From contig CANCKV010000042.1 of the NCBI GenBank assembly GCA_947378615.1, positions 1-11,526 on the forward strand: 11,526 nucleotides of DNA, in the 5' to 3' direction. Both the position numbers and the translations under genes were made by a program. The notes beneath the pieces were generated by a model. That model was not told the origin of the DNA. It made no database searches and was given only the letters and a program-made list of their open reading frames with translations. Of the stretch, positions 4,314-11,435 are shown in pieces (the stretch's first letter is position 1; each line of letters starts with the position of its first letter). The stretch comes from Chitinophagaceae bacterium. GTDB taxonomy: Bacteria; Bacteroidota; Bacteroidia; Chitinophagales; Chitinophagaceae.

Positions 4314-5588
4314 ATGCAAAAACAACGTACTGTAGCCTTTCATACTCTTGGATGTAAGCTTAATTTTTCAGAGACATCTACAATTGCAAGACAATTGGAA
4401 ACTGCAGGATTTGAGAAAAAACATTTCGATTCTGTTGCAGATATTTATGTGATTAATACTTGTTCTGTGACAGATAATGCCGATAAGGAATGTAGATATT
4501 TGGTAAGGAGAATTCAAAGGAAATCGCCCGAAAGTATTGTAGTAATTACAGGTTGTTATGCACAATTGAAACCCGAAGAGATAGCGTCAATCCCCGGTGT
4601 AGATTTAGTTTTAGGCGCTGCTGAAAAGTTTAATATCGTTCAGCATATCTCCGATTTTGTAAAGGGTGATAGTACAAAAATTAGTAGTTGTGATATTGAA
4701 GATGTTACCGGATTTAATGCATCTTATTCTGCTAACGACCGCACGCGTACATTCCTAAAAGTTCAGGATGGCTGCGACTATACCTGTTCATTCTGTACGA
4801 TTCCAAAGGCGAGAGGCAAAAGTCGAAGCGATAATATTGAAAATGTAGTGAGAAATGTGGAGGAAATTGCAAAGACTTCAGTTAGAGAAATCGTATTGAC
4901 AGGTGTAAACTTGGGCGACTTTGGAAAGGGACCTGATGGTAATAAGAAAAATAATGAGGAATTCCTACATCTATTACAACAACTCGATGAAGTGGAAGGG
5001 ATTGATAGATATCGTATTTCTTCAATAGAACCTAACTTATTAACGAATGAAATCATTGAGTTTGTAGCAAAAAGTAAACGTATCATGCCACATTTTCATA
5101 TTCCACTTCAAAGTGGGAGTAATACTATCTTGGGTTTGATGAAGCGTCGTTATAAAAGGGAATTATATACAGAAAGAGTGGATTTGATTAAGAAAATGAT
5201 GCCACACTGTTGCATAGGAGTAGATGTTATTGTTGGTTTCCCAGGTGAGACAGAAGAATTATTCAAAGAAACCTTCGATTTTTTACATAGTCTTGACATT
5301 TCCTACCTGCATGTATTTACTTATTCAGAAAGACCTGATACAGAAGCAATTGAGTTGAAACCAGTAGTGCCTGTTCATATAAGAAATGAAAGAAATAAGA
5401 AACTAAGAAATCTTAGTTTTATGAAGCTGCAATATTTTACACAACAGCAAGTAGGCACGAAAAGAAAAGTGTTATTTGAAATATTCGAAAAAGATGGAAT
5501 GATGGAAGGTTATTCTGATAACTACATTCGAATAGCAACCCCTTATAGAAAAGAATGGGCAAATGAAATTGTGGAGTGGAAGATGTGA
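4314..5588 (+). CDS. mtaB: tRNA t6A37 C2-methylthiotransferase MtaB
   Basis: A 424-residue radical-SAM enzyme that adds a methylthio group to N6-threonylcarbamoyladenosine at position 37 of tRNAs, giving ms2t6A. The N-terminal UPF0004 domain carries the three cysteines of the auxiliary 4Fe-4S cluster: C14 in TLGCKLNFSE, C50 in INTCSVT and C81 in TGCYAQ. The radical-SAM domain has the CxxxCxxC motif at C154, C158, C161 (GCDYTCSFCTIPKARG), which binds the SAM cluster. Further family marks are EIVLTGVNLGDFG (192-204), RISSIEPN (234-241), HIPLQSGSN (262-270) and VGFPGET (307-313). A short TRAM-like C-terminal region follows. The TLGCKLN phrase and absence of the MiaB-type C-terminus favour MtaB (YqeV) over MiaB or RimO. 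The ATG at 4314 gives the family's usual N-terminus; an in-frame start at 4227 is rejected. It is monocistronic, convergent with the next gene. Confidence 0.93.
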   Translation: MQKQRTVAFHTLGCKLNFSETSTIARQLETAGFEKKHFDSVADIYVINTCSVTDNADKECRYLVRRIQRKSPESIVVITGCYAQLKPEEIASIPGVDLVLGAAEKFNIVQHISDFVKGDSTKISSCDIEDVTGFNASYSANDRTRTFLKVQDGCDYTCSFCTIPKARGKSRSDNIENVVRNVEEIAKTSVREIVLTGVNLGDFGKGPDGNKKNNEEFLHLLQQLDEVEGIDRYRISSIEPNLLTNEIIEFVAKSKRIMPHFHIPLQSGSNTILGLMKRRYKRELYTERVDLIKKMMPHCCIGVDVIVGFPGETEELFKETFDFLHSLDISYLHVFTYSERPDTEAIELKPVVPVHIRNERNKKLRNLSFMKLQYFTQQQVGTKRKVLFEIFEKDGMMEGYSDNYIRIATPYRKEWANEIVEWKM

Positions 5589-5608: not shown

Positions 5609-5671
5609 TTTCAAGTTGCAGGTTTCAAGGAAAAGAACGGGCAACTTGAAACTTGTAACTTGTAACTTGTA
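5609..5671. repeat. Heptamer-repeat inverted element at the mtaB/YhhN 3' junction
   Basis: A perfect 11-bp inverted repeat, TTTCAAGTTGC (5609-5619) with GCAACTTGAAA (5641-5651), is followed by a run of 7-bp units: CAACTTG, AAACTTG, TAACTTG, TAACTTG (5642-5669). The left arm also shows the 7-bp period (CTTGAAA, CCTGCAA, CTTGAAA when read in reverse complement). It starts 20 bp after the mtaB stop and ends at the base before the YhhN stop codon on the opposite strand. It could act as a bidirectional transcript end, although there is no T run. Confidence 0.75.
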
Positions 5672-6445
5672 TTACCTCGCTGTCTTTCTAAATCCATTTG
5701 CATTTAGAAGTTGCGCATAACCATATAAAATAATCACAACGGCATCTAGTCTTGGTTCCATTAGTTTGTATCTGTTTAATACAATGACTATTGCCGCAAT
5801 TAAAGACAATATAGCAGCAGGGAAAAAGTAGCTGATAGACAGTTTCTTTCTGCTATTACTATCTAAAATGTTGGATGCTGCTGCTGCAACAAATAAAAGT
5901 GAACTTATAAATGCTATCCATGGGTATTTAAAGTGTCCAATTGCCCTAGGACTAATTGCCATCCAAAAAACCAAATAAATCAAACCAAGTCCCACAGTAA
6001 AAATCAAGGAAGGGTAAACTGCTTTATTTAAGGGCACTTTCCTGATTTTATAAAATGCTAATACATGAAATAAATTTGCAAACCCATATCCAATTAAACT
6101 AATAATTAGGGAGGGGTCTTTAGTCACAGTATCTTCAATATTGGGATTTACAAATGCCCTAAAAATATCTGAAATCCAAAGAAATGCTATTGCAGCAAAG
6201 AAGAATATCTTTAGTGTTCTTGAATGTGTAGGTTTTAAGCTGACAAATAAATAAATAGCAAGTATAGGCATTAACATTACCCTGACAATTGAAGCAAGAA
6301 AATACTGCTCACTAAAAATCAGTAACGATCCGGCTATCAATACAACCCAATACAGAAAAAAAAGCCATGTCTTTGCACCCTCCATTAATAAAATTTGTAT
6401 CAGCGAAAATATTAGAATAATGTATATGAAGTACTCTTTTATCAA
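5672..6445 (-). CDS. YhhN (TMEM86/lysoplasmalogenase-like) family membrane protein
   Basis: A 257-residue protein that is almost wholly hydrophobic, with about eight or nine membrane segments (roughly 4-20, 26-44, 50-69, 79-98, 112-131, 143-162, 173-191, 204-223, 233-249). Its pattern matches the YhhN family: RVMLMPILAIYLF (55-67), AFLWISDIF (87-95), GFANLFHVLAFYK (121-133), YPSLIF (144-149), and a C-terminal VLNRYKL then YGYAQLLNANG (241-251). Family members characterised in animals and Legionella cleave the vinyl-ether bond of lysoplasmalogens. D93 agrees with the first conserved Asp. The second, in the usual SD-LLALNRF phrase, appears to be replaced by Ala (A217-A218 before IVIVLNRY), so activity is doubtful. 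The start is TTG at 6445, with a stop two codons upstream. The first ATG is codon 21, which would drop the first TM. The alternative start is not excluded. Confidence 0.7.
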   Translation of the reverse strand: MIKEYFIYIILIFSLIQILLMEGAKTWLFFLYWVVLIAGSLLIFSEQYFLASIVRVMLMPILAIYLFVSLKPTHSRTLKIFFFAAIAFLWISDIFRAFVNPNIEDTVTKDPSLIISLIGYGFANLFHVLAFYKIRKVPLNKAVYPSLIFTVGLGLIYLVFWMAISPRAIGHFKYPWIAFISSLLFVAAAASNILDSNSRKKLSISYFFPAAILSLIAAIVIVLNRYKLMEPRLDAVVIILYGYAQLLNANGFRKTAR

Positions 6446-6458
6446 AAATTAATTAAAA

Positions 6459-6491
6459 TTGTTTAAAAAGAAGGTTAACAAACTAATTTTG
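6459..6491 (+). promoter_or_regulatory. Promoter of the small membrane protein, nearly leaderless
   Basis: TAATTTTG (6484-6491) fits TAnnTTTG and is followed by C. A TTG (6459-6461) lies 22 bp upstream, within the expected 17-23. The box ends only four bases before the ATG at 6496. The 50-bp gap also holds the divergent start of the YhhN gene at 6445, where the minus strand reads TAATTTTTG across the TTG start. Confidence 0.6.
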
Positions 6492-6495
6492 CATC

Positions 6496-6801
6496 ATGCT
6501 AACAGAACAAGAAGAGAAGTTTATACAATGGTGGGAAGAGAATAGAGAATCTCAAAAGAAGAGTTTTAAACAGTTTTTTAAAGGACTTTCAAGAGGACTT
6601 GCCATCAGTTGTGGTATTGTATTTATAGTGATAATAGGTTGGTACAAAAGAGCAAATATGGAAGCAAATAGTCAAATGAGTATTTCAATATTTCTTATTG
6701 CACTTATTGGAATTGCGGTTTTCATGGCTTGGTTGTACCAAAACTACCAATGGGAAATGCAAGAACAACAATATTTAGAATTAAAAGCTCGGAAAAGATA
6801 A
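6496..6801 (+). CDS. Small two-TM membrane protein of unknown function
   Basis: A 101-residue protein not assigned to a named family. The N-terminus is amphipathic and charged (MLTEQEEKFIQWWEENRES). The first membrane segment lies at about 33-50 (RGLAISCGIVFIVIIGWY), followed by a short Asn/Glu/Ser loop. The second lies at about 63-81 (ISIFLIALIGIAVFMAWL), and the tail is charged and helical (NYQWEMQEQQYLELKARKR). By the positive-inside rule the Lys/Arg-rich ends suggest both termini are cytoplasmic. I have the impression that similar small proteins starting with MLTEQEEKF are common in Chitinophaga-type genomes, but I cannot check this. A good promoter lies four bases before the ATG. Its stop is directly followed by the heptamer element at 6803. 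Its product does not hint at a link to the divergent YhhN gene. Confidence 0.75.
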   Translation: MLTEQEEKFIQWWEENRESQKKSFKQFFKGLSRGLAISCGIVFIVIIGWYKRANMEANSQMSISIFLIALIGIAVFMAWLYQNYQWEMQEQQYLELKARKR

Positions 6802-6802
6802 G

Positions 6803-6930
6803 ATAATTGATAATGGTTAATGGTTAATGGTTACCTATATTAGTTAAATAAGTAACAAATTGCCTATTTAGTTTCCATTAACAATTAACCATTAATCATT
6901 AACCACTAACAATTATCAATTATCAATTAT
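6803..6930. repeat. Heptamer-repeat inverted element between convergent genes
   Basis: The left arm (6803-6830) is four 7-bp units: ATAATTG, ATAATGG, TTAATGG, TTAATGG. The right arm (6875-6930) is eight units in the opposite orientation: CCATTAA, CAATTAA, CCATTAA, TCATTAA, CCACTAA, then CAATTAT three times. The loop is about 44 bp. The element begins two bases after the stop of the small membrane protein and runs 8 bp into the 3' end of the GNAT gene, whose TGA stop (6925-6923) is part of a unit. It probably folds into a long imperfect hairpin and could end transcripts from both sides. Confidence 0.85.
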
Positions 6931-7435
6931 TAATTAATAGTGACATCACATAATCATTCATATAATAACCATCACCAATATGAAAATCCTGTTCCCTTAA
7001 AATTTCAAAACCCATCTTTTGATAAAATCCTACTGATTTATTCTTTCTATTAACCTGCAATACCAACTCCTTACCTCCCGAATCAATGACTCTTTTAATG
7101 ACTTCTTGCAATAATTTTTTTCCAGCACCCACTTTTTGTGCTTTAGGATTTACATAAAGCTTATCTAATTTATAAATTCTTTCTTCTTTGAATTTGTAAC
7201 AGGCAAAACCAATTGCAGTTCCATTTAATTCGGCAATGATATATGAATGTCCTAAGAACATCTCTTCTTCCAAAATATCTGTACTATATCGTTGATCTAA
7301 CATGTATTCCACTTGCCTTGAAGGAATGATTCTATTATAAGTGACAGGCCATGTTTCGTGTGCTATCTCCTGAATTGCAGGAATATCATCATTTACAGCA
7401 CTTCTGATTTCGAGAACCGTATTAGACTTATTCAT
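6923..7435 (-). CDS. GNAT-family N-acetyltransferase
   Basis: A 170-residue acetyltransferase that transfers acetyl from acetyl-CoA to an amine; the substrate is unknown. The opening LEIRSAVNDDIPAIQEIAHETW (8-29) is the typical first strand and helix. YIIAELNGTAIGFACYKF (65-82) covers strands 2-3. LDKLYVNPKAQKVGAGKKLL (90-109) is motif A, with the pyrophosphate-binding QKVGAG (100-105). LVLQVNRKNKSVGFYQKMGFE (125-145) is motif B, ending in the FYQKMGF signature. Length and order are complete. It starts 9 bp after the stop of the PAP2 gene on the same strand and probably shares its transcript. No Shine-Dalgarno is seen. The last residues (LLINN) are encoded by AT-rich DNA at the edge of the heptamer element, so its exact C-terminus may have been set by that insertion. 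Confidence 0.92.
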   Translation of the reverse strand: MNKSNTVLEIRSAVNDDIPAIQEIAHETWPVTYNRIIPSRQVEYMLDQRYSTDILEEEMFLGHSYIIAELNGTAIGFACYKFKEERIYKLDKLYVNPKAQKVGAGKKLLQEVIKRVIDSGGKELVLQVNRKNKSVGFYQKMGFEILREQDFHIGDGYYMNDYVMSLLINN

Positions 7436-7444
7436 CAGACTATA

Positions 7445-8104
7445 TTATTTTATTTTAAAAAACTTATGTTGTAACCAATTACTTAAGTAAGCACTTCCAA
7501 TACCAATTACTGCTCCTGCCAATACATCTGTAGGATAATGTTCGCCCAAATATAAACGAGAATAGCCAACAGAAGTTGCATACAAATAAGCGGGCACTAC
7601 CATATACCATTTCTTGCATTCAATCGATAAAGATGCAGCCAAAGAAAAGGCAGTAGATGTATGTCCTGAAGGGAATGAATTACCCGTTTCTGCATTGTCA
7701 TACGGATTAATGATTGTGGGATATTTTGTGTAAGGTCGAGGTCTGTTTATAGCAAACTTTAGTCCTTGAGTAATTGCAGTGTTAACAGCAACTGCACCCA
7801 CTATTTTCCATCCGTGTTGCTGTAATTCCTTGTCATGATGAATATAACCTGCCAACAAAACTCCCGCCGGAACAGCCAATGTAATTGGATATACGGAAGA
7901 AGTTGTCTTCTGCCAATATTTAGAAGATGGAATTGACGGATTAATGTTGTCCAACAAATTCACTTCACCTGATTGGGCAAAAAGATGGTTTCCTCCAATT
8001 AATAGTGCAAACAAAAGAGAGGCACGTAACAGCCTCCGTTTAGTGACAGTGATATTAAATATTTGCGAGACTCTCTTCAATAGTCTTAATTCTTGCTTCT
8101 GCAT
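7445..8104 (-). CDS. PAP2-family (type 2 phosphatidic acid) phosphatase
   Basis: A 219-residue phosphatase of the PAP2/haloperoxidase superfamily, with all three catalytic motifs. Motif 1 is KxxxxxxRP at K116-R123-P124 (KFAINRPRP), motif 2 is PSGH at 145-148 (SFPSGHTS), and motif 3 is SRxxxxxHxxxD at S182-R183, H189 and D193 (SRLYLGEHYPTD). H189 is the nucleophile and H148 the acid/base by family rule. Residues about 24-44 (RRLLRASLLFALLIGG, then FAQ) look like a signal peptide with an unusually long n-region. Membrane segments around 75-90, 100-115, 149-162, 168-180 and 193-210 place the active site on the periplasmic side. Likely substrates are phosphatidate, phosphatidylglycerol phosphate or undecaprenyl pyrophosphate. 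The chosen ATG at 8104 overlaps valS by 50 bp. The n-region is long, so a later start (such as TTG at codon 9) is possible. Confidence 0.9.
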   Translation of the reverse strand: MQKQELRLLKRVSQIFNITVTKRRLLRASLLFALLIGGNHLFAQSGEVNLLDNINPSIPSSKYWQKTTSSVYPITLAVPAGVLLAGYIHHDKELQQHGWKIVGAVAVNTAITQGLKFAINRPRPYTKYPTIINPYDNAETGNSFPSGHTSTAFSLAASLSIECKKWYMVVPAYLYATSVGYSRLYLGEHYPTDVLAGAVIGIGSAYLSNWLQHKFFKIK

Positions 8105-10769
8105 CTGCTTGTTTTTTTCTTTCTAACTCTATCACTTCGGGTCTTGCATTCTGCACAAAACGTTCATTACCTAACTTCTTTAATACAGATTGTAGGAATC
8201 CTTGTTGATGTGCCAAATCCTTCAGCAACTCCTGTTTCAAAGCAGTAGAATCCAATTCCTTTTCGCTTTCAATATAGAACTTATCTCTCTCAACAGCCAC
8301 TACGATTGTATTTGCAACGGTATTGTCTGTAAATGAAATCTCTGCGGCATTCACTTGTTTAGAAAGTATAGATTCTATTGCTTGATAATTAGCAGTTTCT
8401 GCCGTTTGAATATGCAGTTTGATTGTTTCTTTTGGCTTAATCTGATTCTTATTCCTAGCATCACGTAATGCAGTGATTACCTGTTTCAATAATTCGCCTT
8501 GTTGTAAGGTATCTGCATCAGGTACTCCAATCGGTAGATTAACTTTCACACATAAATCATCTGATTGTTCTTTTAAAAGATGATAAATCTCTTCTGAAAC
8601 AAAAGGCATGAAAGGATGAATCAACTGCATCAGTTCTTCGAAGAAACCAACAGTCTTTTCATATATTTCTTTGCTGATTGGTAGTTCAAAACCAGGTTTT
8701 ACCCATTCCAAATACCAACTACAGAAATCATCCCAAACCAAGGAGTAGATGGTCTTCAACGCTTCGCTCAATTTGAATTGTTCCATCAAGACCTCTACTT
8801 CAGTTTTAACTTGATTCAAGCGAGAAGAGAACCACATAATAGGAAAAGGAGTTGTAAGTTGTAAGTTATAGGTTGTAAGTAAAGAATCATGTTCTGACTT
8901 ATTACTTATTACTTCCAACTTATTACCTTCTTCTTGCCTTCCTTCCCACATCTTCACCAACTTCAGGGCATTCCAAAGTTTATTATTAAAGTTTCTTCCT
9001 TGTTCCAAACTGCTTTCGTCAAACAGTAAATCATTGCCCGCAGGGGAGGCAATCATGATTCCAAAACGTACGGCATCGGCACCATATTGTTCAATCAATC
9101 CTAATAAATCGGGTGAGTTGCCTAATTGCTTACTCATCTTCCTGCCTTGCTTATCACGCACCATTCCAGTGAAATACACATCTTTGAATGGTAATTGATG
9201 CTTGAATTCATAACCAGCCATAATCATCCTAGCCACCCAAAAAAAGATAATATCCTGTCCTGTTACCAAGGTAGTGGTTGGGTAATAATAGTTTATTTCC
9301 TCATTATCAGGATTGCTGATGCCCTTAAATACTTCTATCGGCCATAACCAAGAGGAGAACCAAGTATCCAGAACATCTTCATCTTGAAATAAATCATTAA
9401 TGGTCAAACTAGCATTAAAAGCTTGTGCCTTTGCCAATGCTTCATCTACTGTTTTAGCAACAAATACATTTCCATTTACATCATACCAAGCAGGAATCCT
9501 TTGTCCCCACCACAACTGACGGCTGATACACCAATCCTTTATGTTTTCCAACCAATGCTTGTAGGTATTCTTTGTTTTTGCAGGATGGAAAGTTATTTCA
9601 TCACTCATCACAGCTGATAATACTTCAGGATTCTTATTAATGAATCCTTTCATATCCATAAACCATTGAAGGCTTAACCTAGATTCTATAACAGCACCTG
9701 TTCTTTCGCTCGTTCCTACCTGCCCCTTATAATCCTCGATTTTTTCTATTTGACCTAATGCAGCAATATCTTCTACAATCTTTTTTCTTAGATCAAACCT
9801 GTCAACACCTACATAAGAAAGTACTAAATCAGAAGGGTTTTCATCCATCAATCCATTAGCCACAAACTTACCTTCTGCATCGAGCGTGTCAATTGTTTTA
9901 AGGTTATGCTTCCGCCCAATTTCATTATCATTCTTGTCGTGTGCAGGTGTAATTTTCAATGCCCCCGTACCAAACTCTGCATCCACATAGTCATCGGCGA
10001 TGATTGAAATCTTCCTATTAATAATTGGTACAATTACTTCCTTCCCAATCCATGCTTTATAACGATCGTCATTTGGATTCACGCAGATAGCCACATCACC
10101 TAGGATAGTCTCGGGACGGGTAGTTGCTACCATCATGAATTTGGAATTATCTTCTACCAAAGGATATTTAACGTAGTATAATTTGCTGTCAATATCTTTA
10201 AAGATAACTTCTTCATCGCTCAAGGCAGTTTTTCCAACAGGATCCCAATTAACCATCCGCATGCCACGATAGATGATGCCTTTCTCGTGCAAATTGATGA
10301 AGATATCTATGACGGATTTATAGTAATCCGCATCCATTGTGAAAGAAGTCCGTTTCCAATCGAGGCTACAACCAATTTTCTTTAATTGTTGCAAGATGAT
10401 CCCCCCATATTTTTCCTTCCATTCCCAAGCATAACTTAAAAATTCATCTCTAGATAAAGATGATTTCGAAATACCCCTTTCCCTCAACATGCCTACCACT
10501 TTTGCTTCAGTAGCAATAGAGGCGTGGTCAGTTCCGGGCACCCAACATGCATTCTTACCTTGCATCCTTGCACGACGTACTAATATATCCTGAATGGTAT
10601 TGTTCAAACAATGCCCCATGTGCAACACACCTGTAACATTTGGAGGAGGAATTACTACTGTAAAAGATTCACGCCCATCGGGTTTACTGCTGAAATAATC
10701 TTTCTGCAACCAATGTTCATACCACTTATTATCAATCAACGACGGTTCAAAATTCTTGCTTAATTCCAT
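8055..10769 (-). CDS. valS: Valyl-tRNA synthetase
   Basis: A 904-residue class I aminoacyl-tRNA synthetase that charges tRNA-Val. The catalytic Rossmann fold has the HIGH-type motif as HMGH (50-53, in PPPNVTGVLHMGH), and KMSKQ at 544-548 stands for KMSKS. The editing domain (CP1) lies at about 190-350, with MMVATTRPETILGDVA (212-227) and the GTGALKITPAHDKND region (267-281). NWDPVGKTALSDEEV (174-188), SRQLWWGQRIPAWY (416-429), DTWFSSWLWP (468-477) and GQDIIFFWVARMI (504-516) are further family signatures. The anticodon-binding domain follows from about 645, and a C-terminal coiled-coil arm occupies about 835-904. The odd part is residues 613-640 (NKLEVISNKSEHDSLL, then TTYNLQLTT), encoded by a heptamer repeat and additional to the expected length. 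It heads the valS-PAP2-GNAT group. There is no T-box leader; a TACTTTTG box lies at 10855-10848. Confidence 0.96.
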   Translation of the reverse strand: MELSKNFEPSLIDNKWYEHWLQKDYFSSKPDGRESFTVVIPPPNVTGVLHMGHCLNNTIQDILVRRARMQGKNACWVPGTDHASIATEAKVVGMLRERGISKSSLSRDEFLSYAWEWKEKYGGIILQQLKKIGCSLDWKRTSFTMDADYYKSVIDIFINLHEKGIIYRGMRMVNWDPVGKTALSDEEVIFKDIDSKLYYVKYPLVEDNSKFMMVATTRPETILGDVAICVNPNDDRYKAWIGKEVIVPIINRKISIIADDYVDAEFGTGALKITPAHDKNDNEIGRKHNLKTIDTLDAEGKFVANGLMDENPSDLVLSYVGVDRFDLRKKIVEDIAALGQIEKIEDYKGQVGTSERTGAVIESRLSLQWFMDMKGFINKNPEVLSAVMSDEITFHPAKTKNTYKHWLENIKDWCISRQLWWGQRIPAWYDVNGNVFVAKTVDEALAKAQAFNASLTINDLFQDEDVLDTWFSSWLWPIEVFKGISNPDNEEINYYYPTTTLVTGQDIIFFWVARMIMAGYEFKHQLPFKDVYFTGMVRDKQGRKMSKQLGNSPDLLGLIEQYGADAVRFGIMIASPAGNDLLFDESSLEQGRNFNNKLWNALKLVKMWEGRQEEGNKLEVISNKSEHDSLLTTYNLQLTTPFPIMWFSSRLNQVKTEVEVLMEQFKLSEALKTIYSLVWDDFCSWYLEWVKPGFELPISKEIYEKTVGFFEELMQLIHPFMPFVSEEIYHLLKEQSDDLCVKVNLPIGVPDADTLQQGELLKQVITALRDARNKNQIKPKETIKLHIQTAETANYQAIESILSKQVNAAEISFTDNTVANTIVVAVERDKFYIESEKELDSTALKQELLKDLAHQQGFLQSVLKKLGNERFVQNARPEVIELERKKQADAEARIKTIEESLANI
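8851..8924. repeat. Heptamer-repeat inverted element inside valS
   Basis: On the plus strand, GTTGTAA (8851), GTTGTAA (8858), GTTATAG (8865), GTTGTAA (8872) are followed by a ~18-bp spacer, then ACTTATT (8897), ACTTATT (8904), ACTTCCA (8911), ACTTATT (8918). The arms are in opposite orientation and share TAAGT-type cores, so an imperfect hairpin is possible. It lies in frame in valS and encodes residues about 615-640, between the catalytic core helix ending WNALKLVKMWEG and the start of the anticodon-binding domain. Confidence 0.85.
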
Positions 10770-10847
10770 TTTTATTAGTGAGTTAGGTACTGTACTATTG
10801 TAGTTACAAAATACAGTTCCTTATTATACAGATATATTTTTAGTTGC

Positions 10848-10855
10848 CAAAAGTA
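10848..10855 (-). promoter_or_regulatory. Possible -7 box of valS
   Basis: TACTTTTG on the minus strand fits TAnnTTTG and lies 78 bp before the valS ATG. No TTG sits at the usual distance upstream. The leader it implies is about 70 nt and contains a short GTACTGTAC near-palindrome (10778-10786) but no T-box features. Confidence 0.4.
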
Positions 10856-10856
10856 A

Positions 10857-11148
10857 GGAAAACAAAAAGGTTGTATTAAAATAGCAAGGAGAAAAGTTTT
10901 TTTGAATAAAAATAACCTAGAAGTAAGCGATTTCTTGGCAAAAAATATGTTGGTATTTAAATGAAAGTCGAAAGCTATGATATATTAGAATGAAAAAATC
11001 ATTACTAAATCCATGCAAAGTAATTTTCTAGATCTAGAACATTCAACTTAAGGCTTATTAGACACTGAAATGATACAAGCAAATGGCAACGCATTATATC
11101 ACAATTAAAAAGTCATTTTATAAATTCTATTGTTCGATGCATTAGTTT
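10857..11148. other. Intergenic DNA without recognised features
   Basis: AT-rich sequence between the valS promoter region and the MITE-like element. Only very short frames occur and no tRNA, hairpin terminator or repeat arm was found; CTAGATCTAG near 11033 is a short palindrome of no clear meaning. Confidence 0.5.
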
Positions 11149-11330
11149 CAAAGTCCGTTACTACTCAGGAGTTTCTACCACAAGGGCAACGAAGAAAAAA
11201 CAAGGAGCACTAGGACTTCTTTTTAAAATAATTGACAGGCAAATATATAAATTGTATACTTTACCTTGTGTTTCTTTGTTCAAATCCTGAGACCCTAGTG
11301 GTAAAAATACCTGAGTAATAACCAAAATCC
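11149..11330. mobile_element. 166-bp MITE-like element with 30-bp inverted ends and 8-bp flanking direct repeat
   Basis: The left end at 11157-11186 (GTTACTACTCAGG, then TACCAC and AGGG) matches the reverse complement of 11293-11322 (GTTATTACTCAGG, then TACCAC and AGGG) at 25 of 30 positions. Past a ~9-11 bp offset the arms pair again: AACGAAG...ACAAGG (11189-11205) with CCTTGTG...CTTTGTT (11264-11280). Directly outside lie CAAAGTCC (11149-11156) and CAAAATCC (11323-11330), an 8-bp direct repeat with one difference, as expected for a target-site duplication. It has no transposase, so it would move in trans, and 8 bp points loosely to an ISL3- or IS256-like parent. The 68-codon minus-strand frame crossing it (11161-11367) is not a gene. 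A purely structural hairpin without mobility remains possible. Confidence 0.75.
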
Positions 11331-11393
11331 ATATTTGTAGTCCATTAACTAGAAAAAACGGTACCAATTAGTCCTTAAAACAAAATCACCCTA

Positions 11394-11435
11394 ACTCATT
11401 CCTCTTAATTCACTACTCACCAATCACCTCTTACT
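11394..11435. repeat. Degenerate heptamer-repeat run at a gene 3' end
   Basis: Six successive 7-bp units, ACTCATT, CCTCTTA, ATTCACT, ACTCACC, AATCACC, TCTTACT, follow one another without gaps from 11394. They share a CTCAC/TTCAC-type core in the same phase. The last unit contains the TAA stop (minus, 11433-11431) of the adjacent partial gene. No inverted partner arm was found nearby, so this may be half of an element of the type at 6803-6930. Confidence 0.55.

Follow-up and report, generated by a model that had tools for sequence, protein, structure and literature searches.

An 11,526-base contig from a Chitinophagaceae genome, analysed here in its entirety (the window), carries short tandem arrays in which the repeated word changes from site to site while the period stays at seven bases, and this raises the question of what could hold the length of a repeat constant without holding its sequence. 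The genome of origin (G000) is a 3.66 Mb assembly of 590 contigs, 67.7% complete, and the closest named relatives of its host by valyl-tRNA synthetase (ValRS) are uncultured Chitinophagaceae, Ferruginibacter and Sediminibacterium. An earlier note on this DNA had described such arrays at four loci. We find that they belong to a genome-wide class of heptamer arrays, often in facing pairs, that favour positions behind stop codons, and consider that, with about an even chance of being right, they are a Bacteroidota variant of the dispersed heptanucleotide repeats, built in place and growing by misaligned copying in 7-base steps.

Three of the four window loci were confirmed as strong two-armed period-7 arrays. 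The first forms a stem-loop between the convergent mtaB and YhhN-like genes, with a first arm of CAAGTTG/CAGGTTT-type words at 5609-5629 (+ strand) and a facing arm of about four units of (AACTTGT)n at 5642-5676 (- strand), where Tandem Repeats Finder (TRF) marks 5643-5671 (period 7, 95% matches) and an exact lag-7 run of 15 stands at 5650. In the second, (TTAATGG)n at 6796-6840 (+; TRF 6811-6833, 100%) overlaps and then continues past the stop of the open reading frame (ORF) at 6496-6801, and (CCATTAA)/(CAATTAT)n at 6870-6945 (-; TRF 6877-6937) overlaps the final codons and stop of an acetyltransferase ORF of the GNAT family. The third lies within valS, where an in-frame (TAAGTTG)n arm at 8846-8882 (+; TRF 8850-8880) meets a facing arm at 8891-8926 (-; TRF 8897-8926), both also marked by the array detector described below. 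The fourth locus, 11394-11435 (-), is a weak, degenerate single array near the contig end, TCAC-like at every seventh base, with no partner seen and no fold; its 20 of 35 lag-7 matches are equalled by 1.5% of the 42-bp windows in the same stretch. Within mtaB, TRF further marked 5379-5411 as a looser period-7 array (20% indels), absent from the list in the earlier note. Exact self-matches of at least 10 bases number five at lag 7 and at most one at each other lag from 2 to 30, and no dense lag-7 stretch arose in 200 Markov-2 simulations of the window. The second arms in opposite orientation claimed for three loci are borne out by RNA folding against shuffles, which gave z scores of -4.8, -7.4 and -5.2 for 5609-5671, 6803-6930 and 8851-8924 on the + strand, and -3.6, -6.5 and -3.3 on the - strand.

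The period is not peculiar to this contig. Exact runs of at least 14 bases in the 56 longest contigs (C1-C56 of the 590; 779,784 bp of 3.66 Mb) number 17, 30, 28 and 9 at lags 7, 14, 21 and 28 (part of the lag-21 signal comes from a separate repeat class, discussed below), and 0 to 3 at each remaining lag from 4 to 30, while three Markov-3 simulations produced no lag-7 run, even at 11 bases. Lag 7 therefore prevails over random sequence and over its neighbours, the comparison on which the earlier note had staked its proposal, and a constant period with varying sequence proves to be both real and widespread. A density search on lags 7, 14 and 21 in 61 contigs (the 56 plus five picked for carrying a match, the set used for layout and vocabulary) returned 115 loci, against 4 to 10 using lags 5, 6, 8, 9 and 10. 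With a looser array detector (15 of 21 positions matching at the lag) the 61 contigs yielded 172 lag-7 arrays. In the 56 contigs the same detector gave 156 arrays at lag 7; the next highest counts were 49, 39 and 30 (lags 6, 9 and 4), and lags 5, 8, 10 and 11 yielded 15 to 21 each, so that the looser lag-7 set is partly background.

The earlier note was right that the words vary between sites, but they are not independent of one another, being drawn from one degenerate vocabulary. Arrays were oriented by G over C count (+, G-rich strand; -, C-rich strand), and the 102 of the 172 that are poor in either G or C but contain four or more of these bases (70 left out) have 35 distinct consensus words, compared with a mean of 76 and a minimum of 66 in 200 letter shuffles. 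Their pooled profile reads T-(T/A/G)-A-(G/A)-T-(T/G)-(A/G), or about T-N-A-R-T-K-R, with conserved scaffold positions, freer positions 2, 6 and 7, and C at position 2 in only 1%; the heptamers originally noticed fit it approximately (CAAGTTA, TTAATGG, TAAGTTG and, on the other strand, TGAATAG). Mixed words occur inside single arrays. Arms of the same element are more alike (0.627, 27 pairs within 300 bp) than arrays on other contigs (0.534, 6156 pairs; 113 of the 172 arrays used). Neighbouring elements within 4 kb, by comparison with shuffles, are no more alike than chance (0.541 vs 0.530, a value reached in 80 of 400 shuffles), so the words form one genome-wide pool, and a local spreading of words was rejected.

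Where two arrays stand close together, they face one another with the G-bearing strand first. Among 33 adjacent pairs within 120 bp in G000, 28 are +-, two -+, two ++ and one --. Complementary pairs are +- in 26 of 26 cases in G000 and, among its relatives within the genus (G001 to G012), in 11 of 12 in G008 (in the exception the second arm is tied) and all 4 in G004, or 41 of 42 in total. Most core elements (65 of 84) have one detected array; of the 63 single arrays with both flanks available, 11 have a weak complementary partner (score at least 10), always on the expected side. This polarity is demonstrated for G- or C-poor words only, since the G/C rule fails to assign GC-rich vocabularies. 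In valS, G and C counts give -0 for the G002 pair and -+ for the G001 pair, which speaks against a universal polarity, and the seven complementary pairs found in 80 named loci comprise three +-, two ++, one -- and one 0+, mostly of the GC-rich words of L148. Two distant genomes (G034 and G197, 94 kb) held nine arrays and no pairs, a sample too small to judge layout.

The sequence between the arms, up to 95 bases long, is unique to each element. Among the 32 of 45 loops long enough to compare (at least 20 bases), two orthologous pairs match and a third pair shares a 12-base word; among 90 flanks, six pairs match (three orthologous, two within one element and one of 17 bases). Given that non-orthologous loops share nothing beyond that one word, every element was made in place, and the earlier note's argument against the copying of a single element holds. 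Copying of an arm from its partner was likewise rejected: the order of words in the two arms matched in 0 of 45 pairs at p<=0.05 (1 of 47 in a first run), whereas simulated copied arms diverged by 5-20% were significant in 12 to 19 of 45 (mean z 1.8-2.4). Since the observed mean z (0.38) lies slightly above zero, a weak arm-order signal may nevertheless be present. In one element orthologous between G000 and G008, the loop is 93% identical over 72 bases and the arm words have been swapped for other allowed words.

We next consider where the elements lie. Of the 84 core elements (six from the five chosen contigs), placed on a simple map of ORFs of at least 90 codons, 63 fall between ORFs, with 48 in tandem gaps, 12 in convergent and 3 in divergent ones; 12 lie inside ORFs and 9 at contig edges. 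The suspected enrichment at gene 3' ends was found, in that 31 of the 48 tandem elements lie within 10 bp of the upstream stop against 14.1 expected under random placement, a count that mixes preference with truncation because stop-containing words supply a stop when an array invades a gene end. Near the next start codon the count stays at chance level (15 of 48 within 10 bp vs 14.1 expected). In the window, the elements lie near mtaB, the YhhN-like gene, the GNAT acetyltransferase, a PAP2 phosphatase and valS. The mtaB gene (4314-5588, +; TIGR01579, 428.8 bits, cut-off 357.05) is the upstream neighbour of the 5609-5676 element, and the 3' end of the GNAT ORF (6923-7435, -; PF00583, E 4.6e-16) falls within the 6870-6945 array.

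Arrays are also present in some protein linkers. The valS gene (8055-10769, -; NF004349 valine--tRNA ligase, 1052.8 bits, cut-off 704) hosts the 8846-8926 insert, which begins at residue 614, between tRNA-synt_1 (ending at 582) and Anticodon_1 (starting at 646). Among the 11 other in-ORF arrays, three stand directly before a C-terminal sorting domain (PF18962) of the type IX secretion system (T9SS), five at ORF ends and three within ORFs. The three T9SS arrays are in frame, in the linker just before PF18962 (L041 2140-2181, L041 10141-10178 and L081 10613-10648), and the first of these linkers is spelled differently in G008, G004 and G001.

Comparison of the same sites, which the earlier note had proposed for close strains, revealed presence and absence at each among same-genus relatives. 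Arrays occupy the mtaB 3' gap at 3 of 13 loci (G000, G008 and G006), in three vocabularies; at three further loci the detector marked only short stretches in coding sequence. At the GNAT 3' end they occur at 3 of 11 loci (G000, G004 and G012). In valS, an in-frame heptad insert is present at 9 of 11 loci and missing from G003 and G011. Its words are of the TAAGTTG type in G000, G007 and G010, the AGGTGTA type in G008 and the CGGTTAA type in G001, G002, G004 and G006; a single arm was marked in G006, and G012 likewise has one arm. Related species therefore carry differing words at one and the same site.

The valS gene, present in 38 of 39 relatives searched, allowed this linker to be followed further. 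Across 46 linkers of at least 60 nt (of 109 distinct), mean self-match was 0.361, 0.341 and 0.350 at lags 7, 14 and 21, and 0.231-0.304 at the remaining lags from 3 to 20; compared with codon shuffles, 10 of the 46 have a folding z below -2. Among the best 120 of 4656 ValRS homologues, many linkers were seen by eye to be two-armed heptad peptides (e.g. QSSVVSSE...THHSPLTTHH), and one identical linker is common to nine proteins. Judged from these sequences, heptad inserts appear to have a hot spot in the linker between the catalytic and anticodon domains of ValRS, where their words vary across the family.

Beyond valS, 131 of the 395 genomes sampled from the phylum contain three consecutive copies of TNAGTTR (one mismatch allowed); in some families the reversed control occurs equally often and is therefore not itself free of heptads. 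Within the genus, matches number 302 in G000, 267, 96, 75, 188, 1 and 153 in G001 to G006, and 272, 157, 5, 167, 56 and 0 in G007 to G012. The reversed control matches between 0 and 10 times per genome, other than in G005 (25) and G012 (83), where other words dominate. Arrays in G012 are far longer, up to about 500 bp, and built of other words (L276 6884-7262, L277 18732-18984, L281 17621-18123). In 614 kb from 80 named relatives, runs of at least 13 bases number 7, 7, 3 and 1 at lags 7, 14, 21 and 28, with a mean of 0.17 elsewhere.

A second class of tandem repeats accompanies the heptamers in G000. It has a period of 21 or its multiples (42, 63, 84 and so on), no inner period of 7, and differing units; the 56 contigs contain 36 such regions, and for 31 of these no ORF of at least 90 codons covers the greater part. 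Examples lie at 1654-1876 of the window, L029 15780-15877, L041 2760-3006, L045 440-518, L054 3778-3918 and L074 3796-4017, and others exist. With period-7 sequence masked, lags 21, 42, 63, 84, 105, 126 and 147 still give 18, 29, 10, 24, 9, 12 and 7 runs, whereas lags 7, 14, 28 and 35 drop to 0-2, and part of the lag-21 signal is for this reason assigned to this class, apart from the heptamer arrays. Although separate from the heptamer finding, the class may share its cause. Between the window example and an OmpA-like gene lies a 25-nt inverted repeat (1430-1454 and 1513-1537) that is 96% complementary, with its arms 58 nt apart and a G+C-richer centre.

The earlier note knew of no named family that fits; published relatives do exist. 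Dispersed, mostly intergenic heptamer arrays of GGGAATC/GGGANTN words in Xanthomonas and GGGGA(C/T)T words in Nostoc are described by Rehm et al. 2015 (PMC4692102). According to that account, the arrays lie nearer the 5' neighbour gene (on average 28 nt vs 160 nt), form 70 convergent pairs in Xcc and 75 in Xac (only a few are paired in Nostoc), vary in length between close species and are generally not tied to mobile elements. The present arrays resemble them in being dispersed, intergenic, close to the upstream gene's 3' end and arranged in facing pairs, and on our own reading of the text of PMC4692102 the convergent pairs have the same polarity. Unlike the arrays described there, those reported here have no GGG tract, so G-quadruplex formation is inapplicable, and they comprise several vocabularies per genome and extend into protein linkers. 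TAACTGA direct repeats, in turn, are reported from Beggiatoaceae, cyanobacteria and five Bacteroidetes, some beside other heptamers (MacGregor 2015, PMC4679880). These too are heptamer direct repeats, and their reverse complement, TCAGTTA, fits the T-N-A-G-T-T-A form. In the Maribeggiatoa genome, as that paper describes it, a single word sits mostly just upstream of start codons, in contrast to the many words, facing arms, 3'-end position, rare position-2 C and missing start-codon excess of the present elements.

A third relative is the P6b stem-loop of the Nostoc trnL (UAA) group I intron, made of the 7-base motifs TDNGATT or NNTGAGT, for which Kaasalainen et al. 2015 (PMC4476775) describe independent, repeated, unidirectional replacement of one motif class by the other at the same place. 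Like P6b, the present elements have heptamers in both arms of a stem-loop; unlike that one intron locus as described, they occur genome-wide, between and in protein genes, and Rfam gave no hit (E<=1) in the window. By the accounts in PMC4679880 and PMC4692102, Mrazek et al. 2007 found 7-base units over-represented among long simple sequence repeats, and both papers attribute to that work slippage and a 7-base polymerase footprint as the reason for seven. Here too, tandem 7-base units exceed chance and other unit lengths, though the two papers' accounts of that work hold nothing on facing arms, a shared vocabulary or turnover at a fixed site. A 2025 survey (PMC12699852) reports that tandem repeats are dense in Bacteroidota and that certain units of 6-9 bp are enriched in prokaryotic phyla. 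In a search of the open-access literature, with subscription literature mostly outside it, we found no account of facing heptamer arrays in Bacteroidota or of ValRS heptad inserts; of six heptamer strings searched, one matched, in work on cyanobacterial community dynamics.

These data allow us to hypothesise how such elements arise. An element comprises a stretch of sequence found only at that site, flanked by one or two heptamer arrays; where there are two, the arms face each other with the G-bearing strand first, as demonstrated for G- or C-poor words. Misaligned copying in 7-base steps, through slippage together with template switching across the foldback, would lengthen and alter the arrays, and it could keep the same words in both arms without preserving their order. 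Arrays would persist at harmless places, namely behind stops, between convergent genes and in the linkers before the ValRS anticodon domain or the T9SS sorting domain, with the foldback a probable by-product rather than a selected RNA structure. Several observations weigh against this model. Local slippage alone does not account for a vocabulary shared genome-wide, nor does it predict facing polarity, and misaligned copying explains neither the source of the first words nor the step of seven. The step itself is not solely seven, as G012 has 31 runs at lag 7, 7 at lag 8 and 15 at lag 9. In a second orthologous pair the arms are not visibly faster-evolving than the loop; nine ValRS proteins keep one linker unchanged, so the array is not hypermutable in that group; and no array birth was observed between near-identical strains, the comparison having covered more divergent relatives.

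Other processes could produce part of this pattern. The conserved scaffold with its freer positions, the facing polarity and the 3'-end position would suit arrays of binding sites, in which a DNA- or RNA-binding protein recognises a degenerate heptamer (about T-N-A-R-T-N-R) and tandem facing sites are maintained by selection at gene ends; by eye, one ortholog pair also differs at exchangeable word positions. We regard this as possible but doubtful, given that words differ at the same site among species of one genus, that G012 has no pattern match and carries other words, and that a regulatory role is difficult to picture for those within ValRS or ahead of T9SS domains. RNA stem-loops behind stops that selection retains for their pairing, working as transcription terminators or mRNA stabilisers, would explain the very stable folds of three window elements and their location behind stop codons and between convergent genes. 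This explanation is unlikely. Arm word order is unmatched, G-U mismatches on the transcribed strand are no commoner than A-C (19 vs 23) in 27 of 30 pairs of known direction, most core elements have one array with a weak hidden partner at best, a like element lies inside valS, and a terminator scan of the window listed no site at the element loci. Selection on RNA pairing was accordingly rejected, and the period-7 hairpin under selection that the earlier note had offered is left unsupported.

A mobile hairpin copied around the genome, whether of the type of repetitive extragenic palindromes and their tyrosine transposases (REP/RAYT) or of miniature inverted-repeat transposable elements (MITEs), could have passed on a fixed polarity from one ancestral element and would account for presence or absence at the same gap between species. 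It is nonetheless improbable, as loops and flanks match little outside orthologs. MITE copying was rejected for want of any common internal sequence except orthologous loops and the 12-base word. RAYT/REP dispersal was rejected because arrays are not enriched near Y1-transposase genes (6 arrays in 60 kb around them, in 20 stretches, vs 98 in 600 kb of G008 and G004), and Y1 counts do not track array counts in 20 genomes. The facing polarity itself is predicted by a route resembling telomere fusion, in which templated synthesis extends the 3' ends on both sides of a break with G-bearing heptamers before the ends are joined, and arms with common words in unmatched order also agree with it. Mixed words in one array and loops of up to 95 bases make such an origin very improbable. 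Templating by a reverse transcriptase or telomerase-like enzyme is moreover unsupported, PF00078 (RVT_1) being missing from four array-rich relatives (G001, G004, G007 and G010; 88, 98, 99 and 99% complete), with other reverse-transcriptase families not searched.

Beside growth by misaligned copying, we tentatively put forward a trans-acting, genome-wide writing of heptamers. It would place words of a genome's current vocabulary de novo, in facing pairs, wherever a site permits; from one species to another the whole vocabulary would be exchanged, with site and layout retained (the ValRS linker, the T9SS linker and gene 3' ends). If this were true, the facing pairs of Xanthomonas would reflect one word-independent mechanism in several phyla. 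Bacterial heptamer repeats have so far been noted piecemeal, phylum by phylum, with explanations specific to the word, such as G-quadruplexes or translational regulation. Together, the facing layout, the 3'-end position and the differing words at a fixed site point instead to a process governed by step and polarity over sequence, and the valS linker, in a gene that nearly all of the relatives searched possess, offers a natural recorder for following that process across the family.

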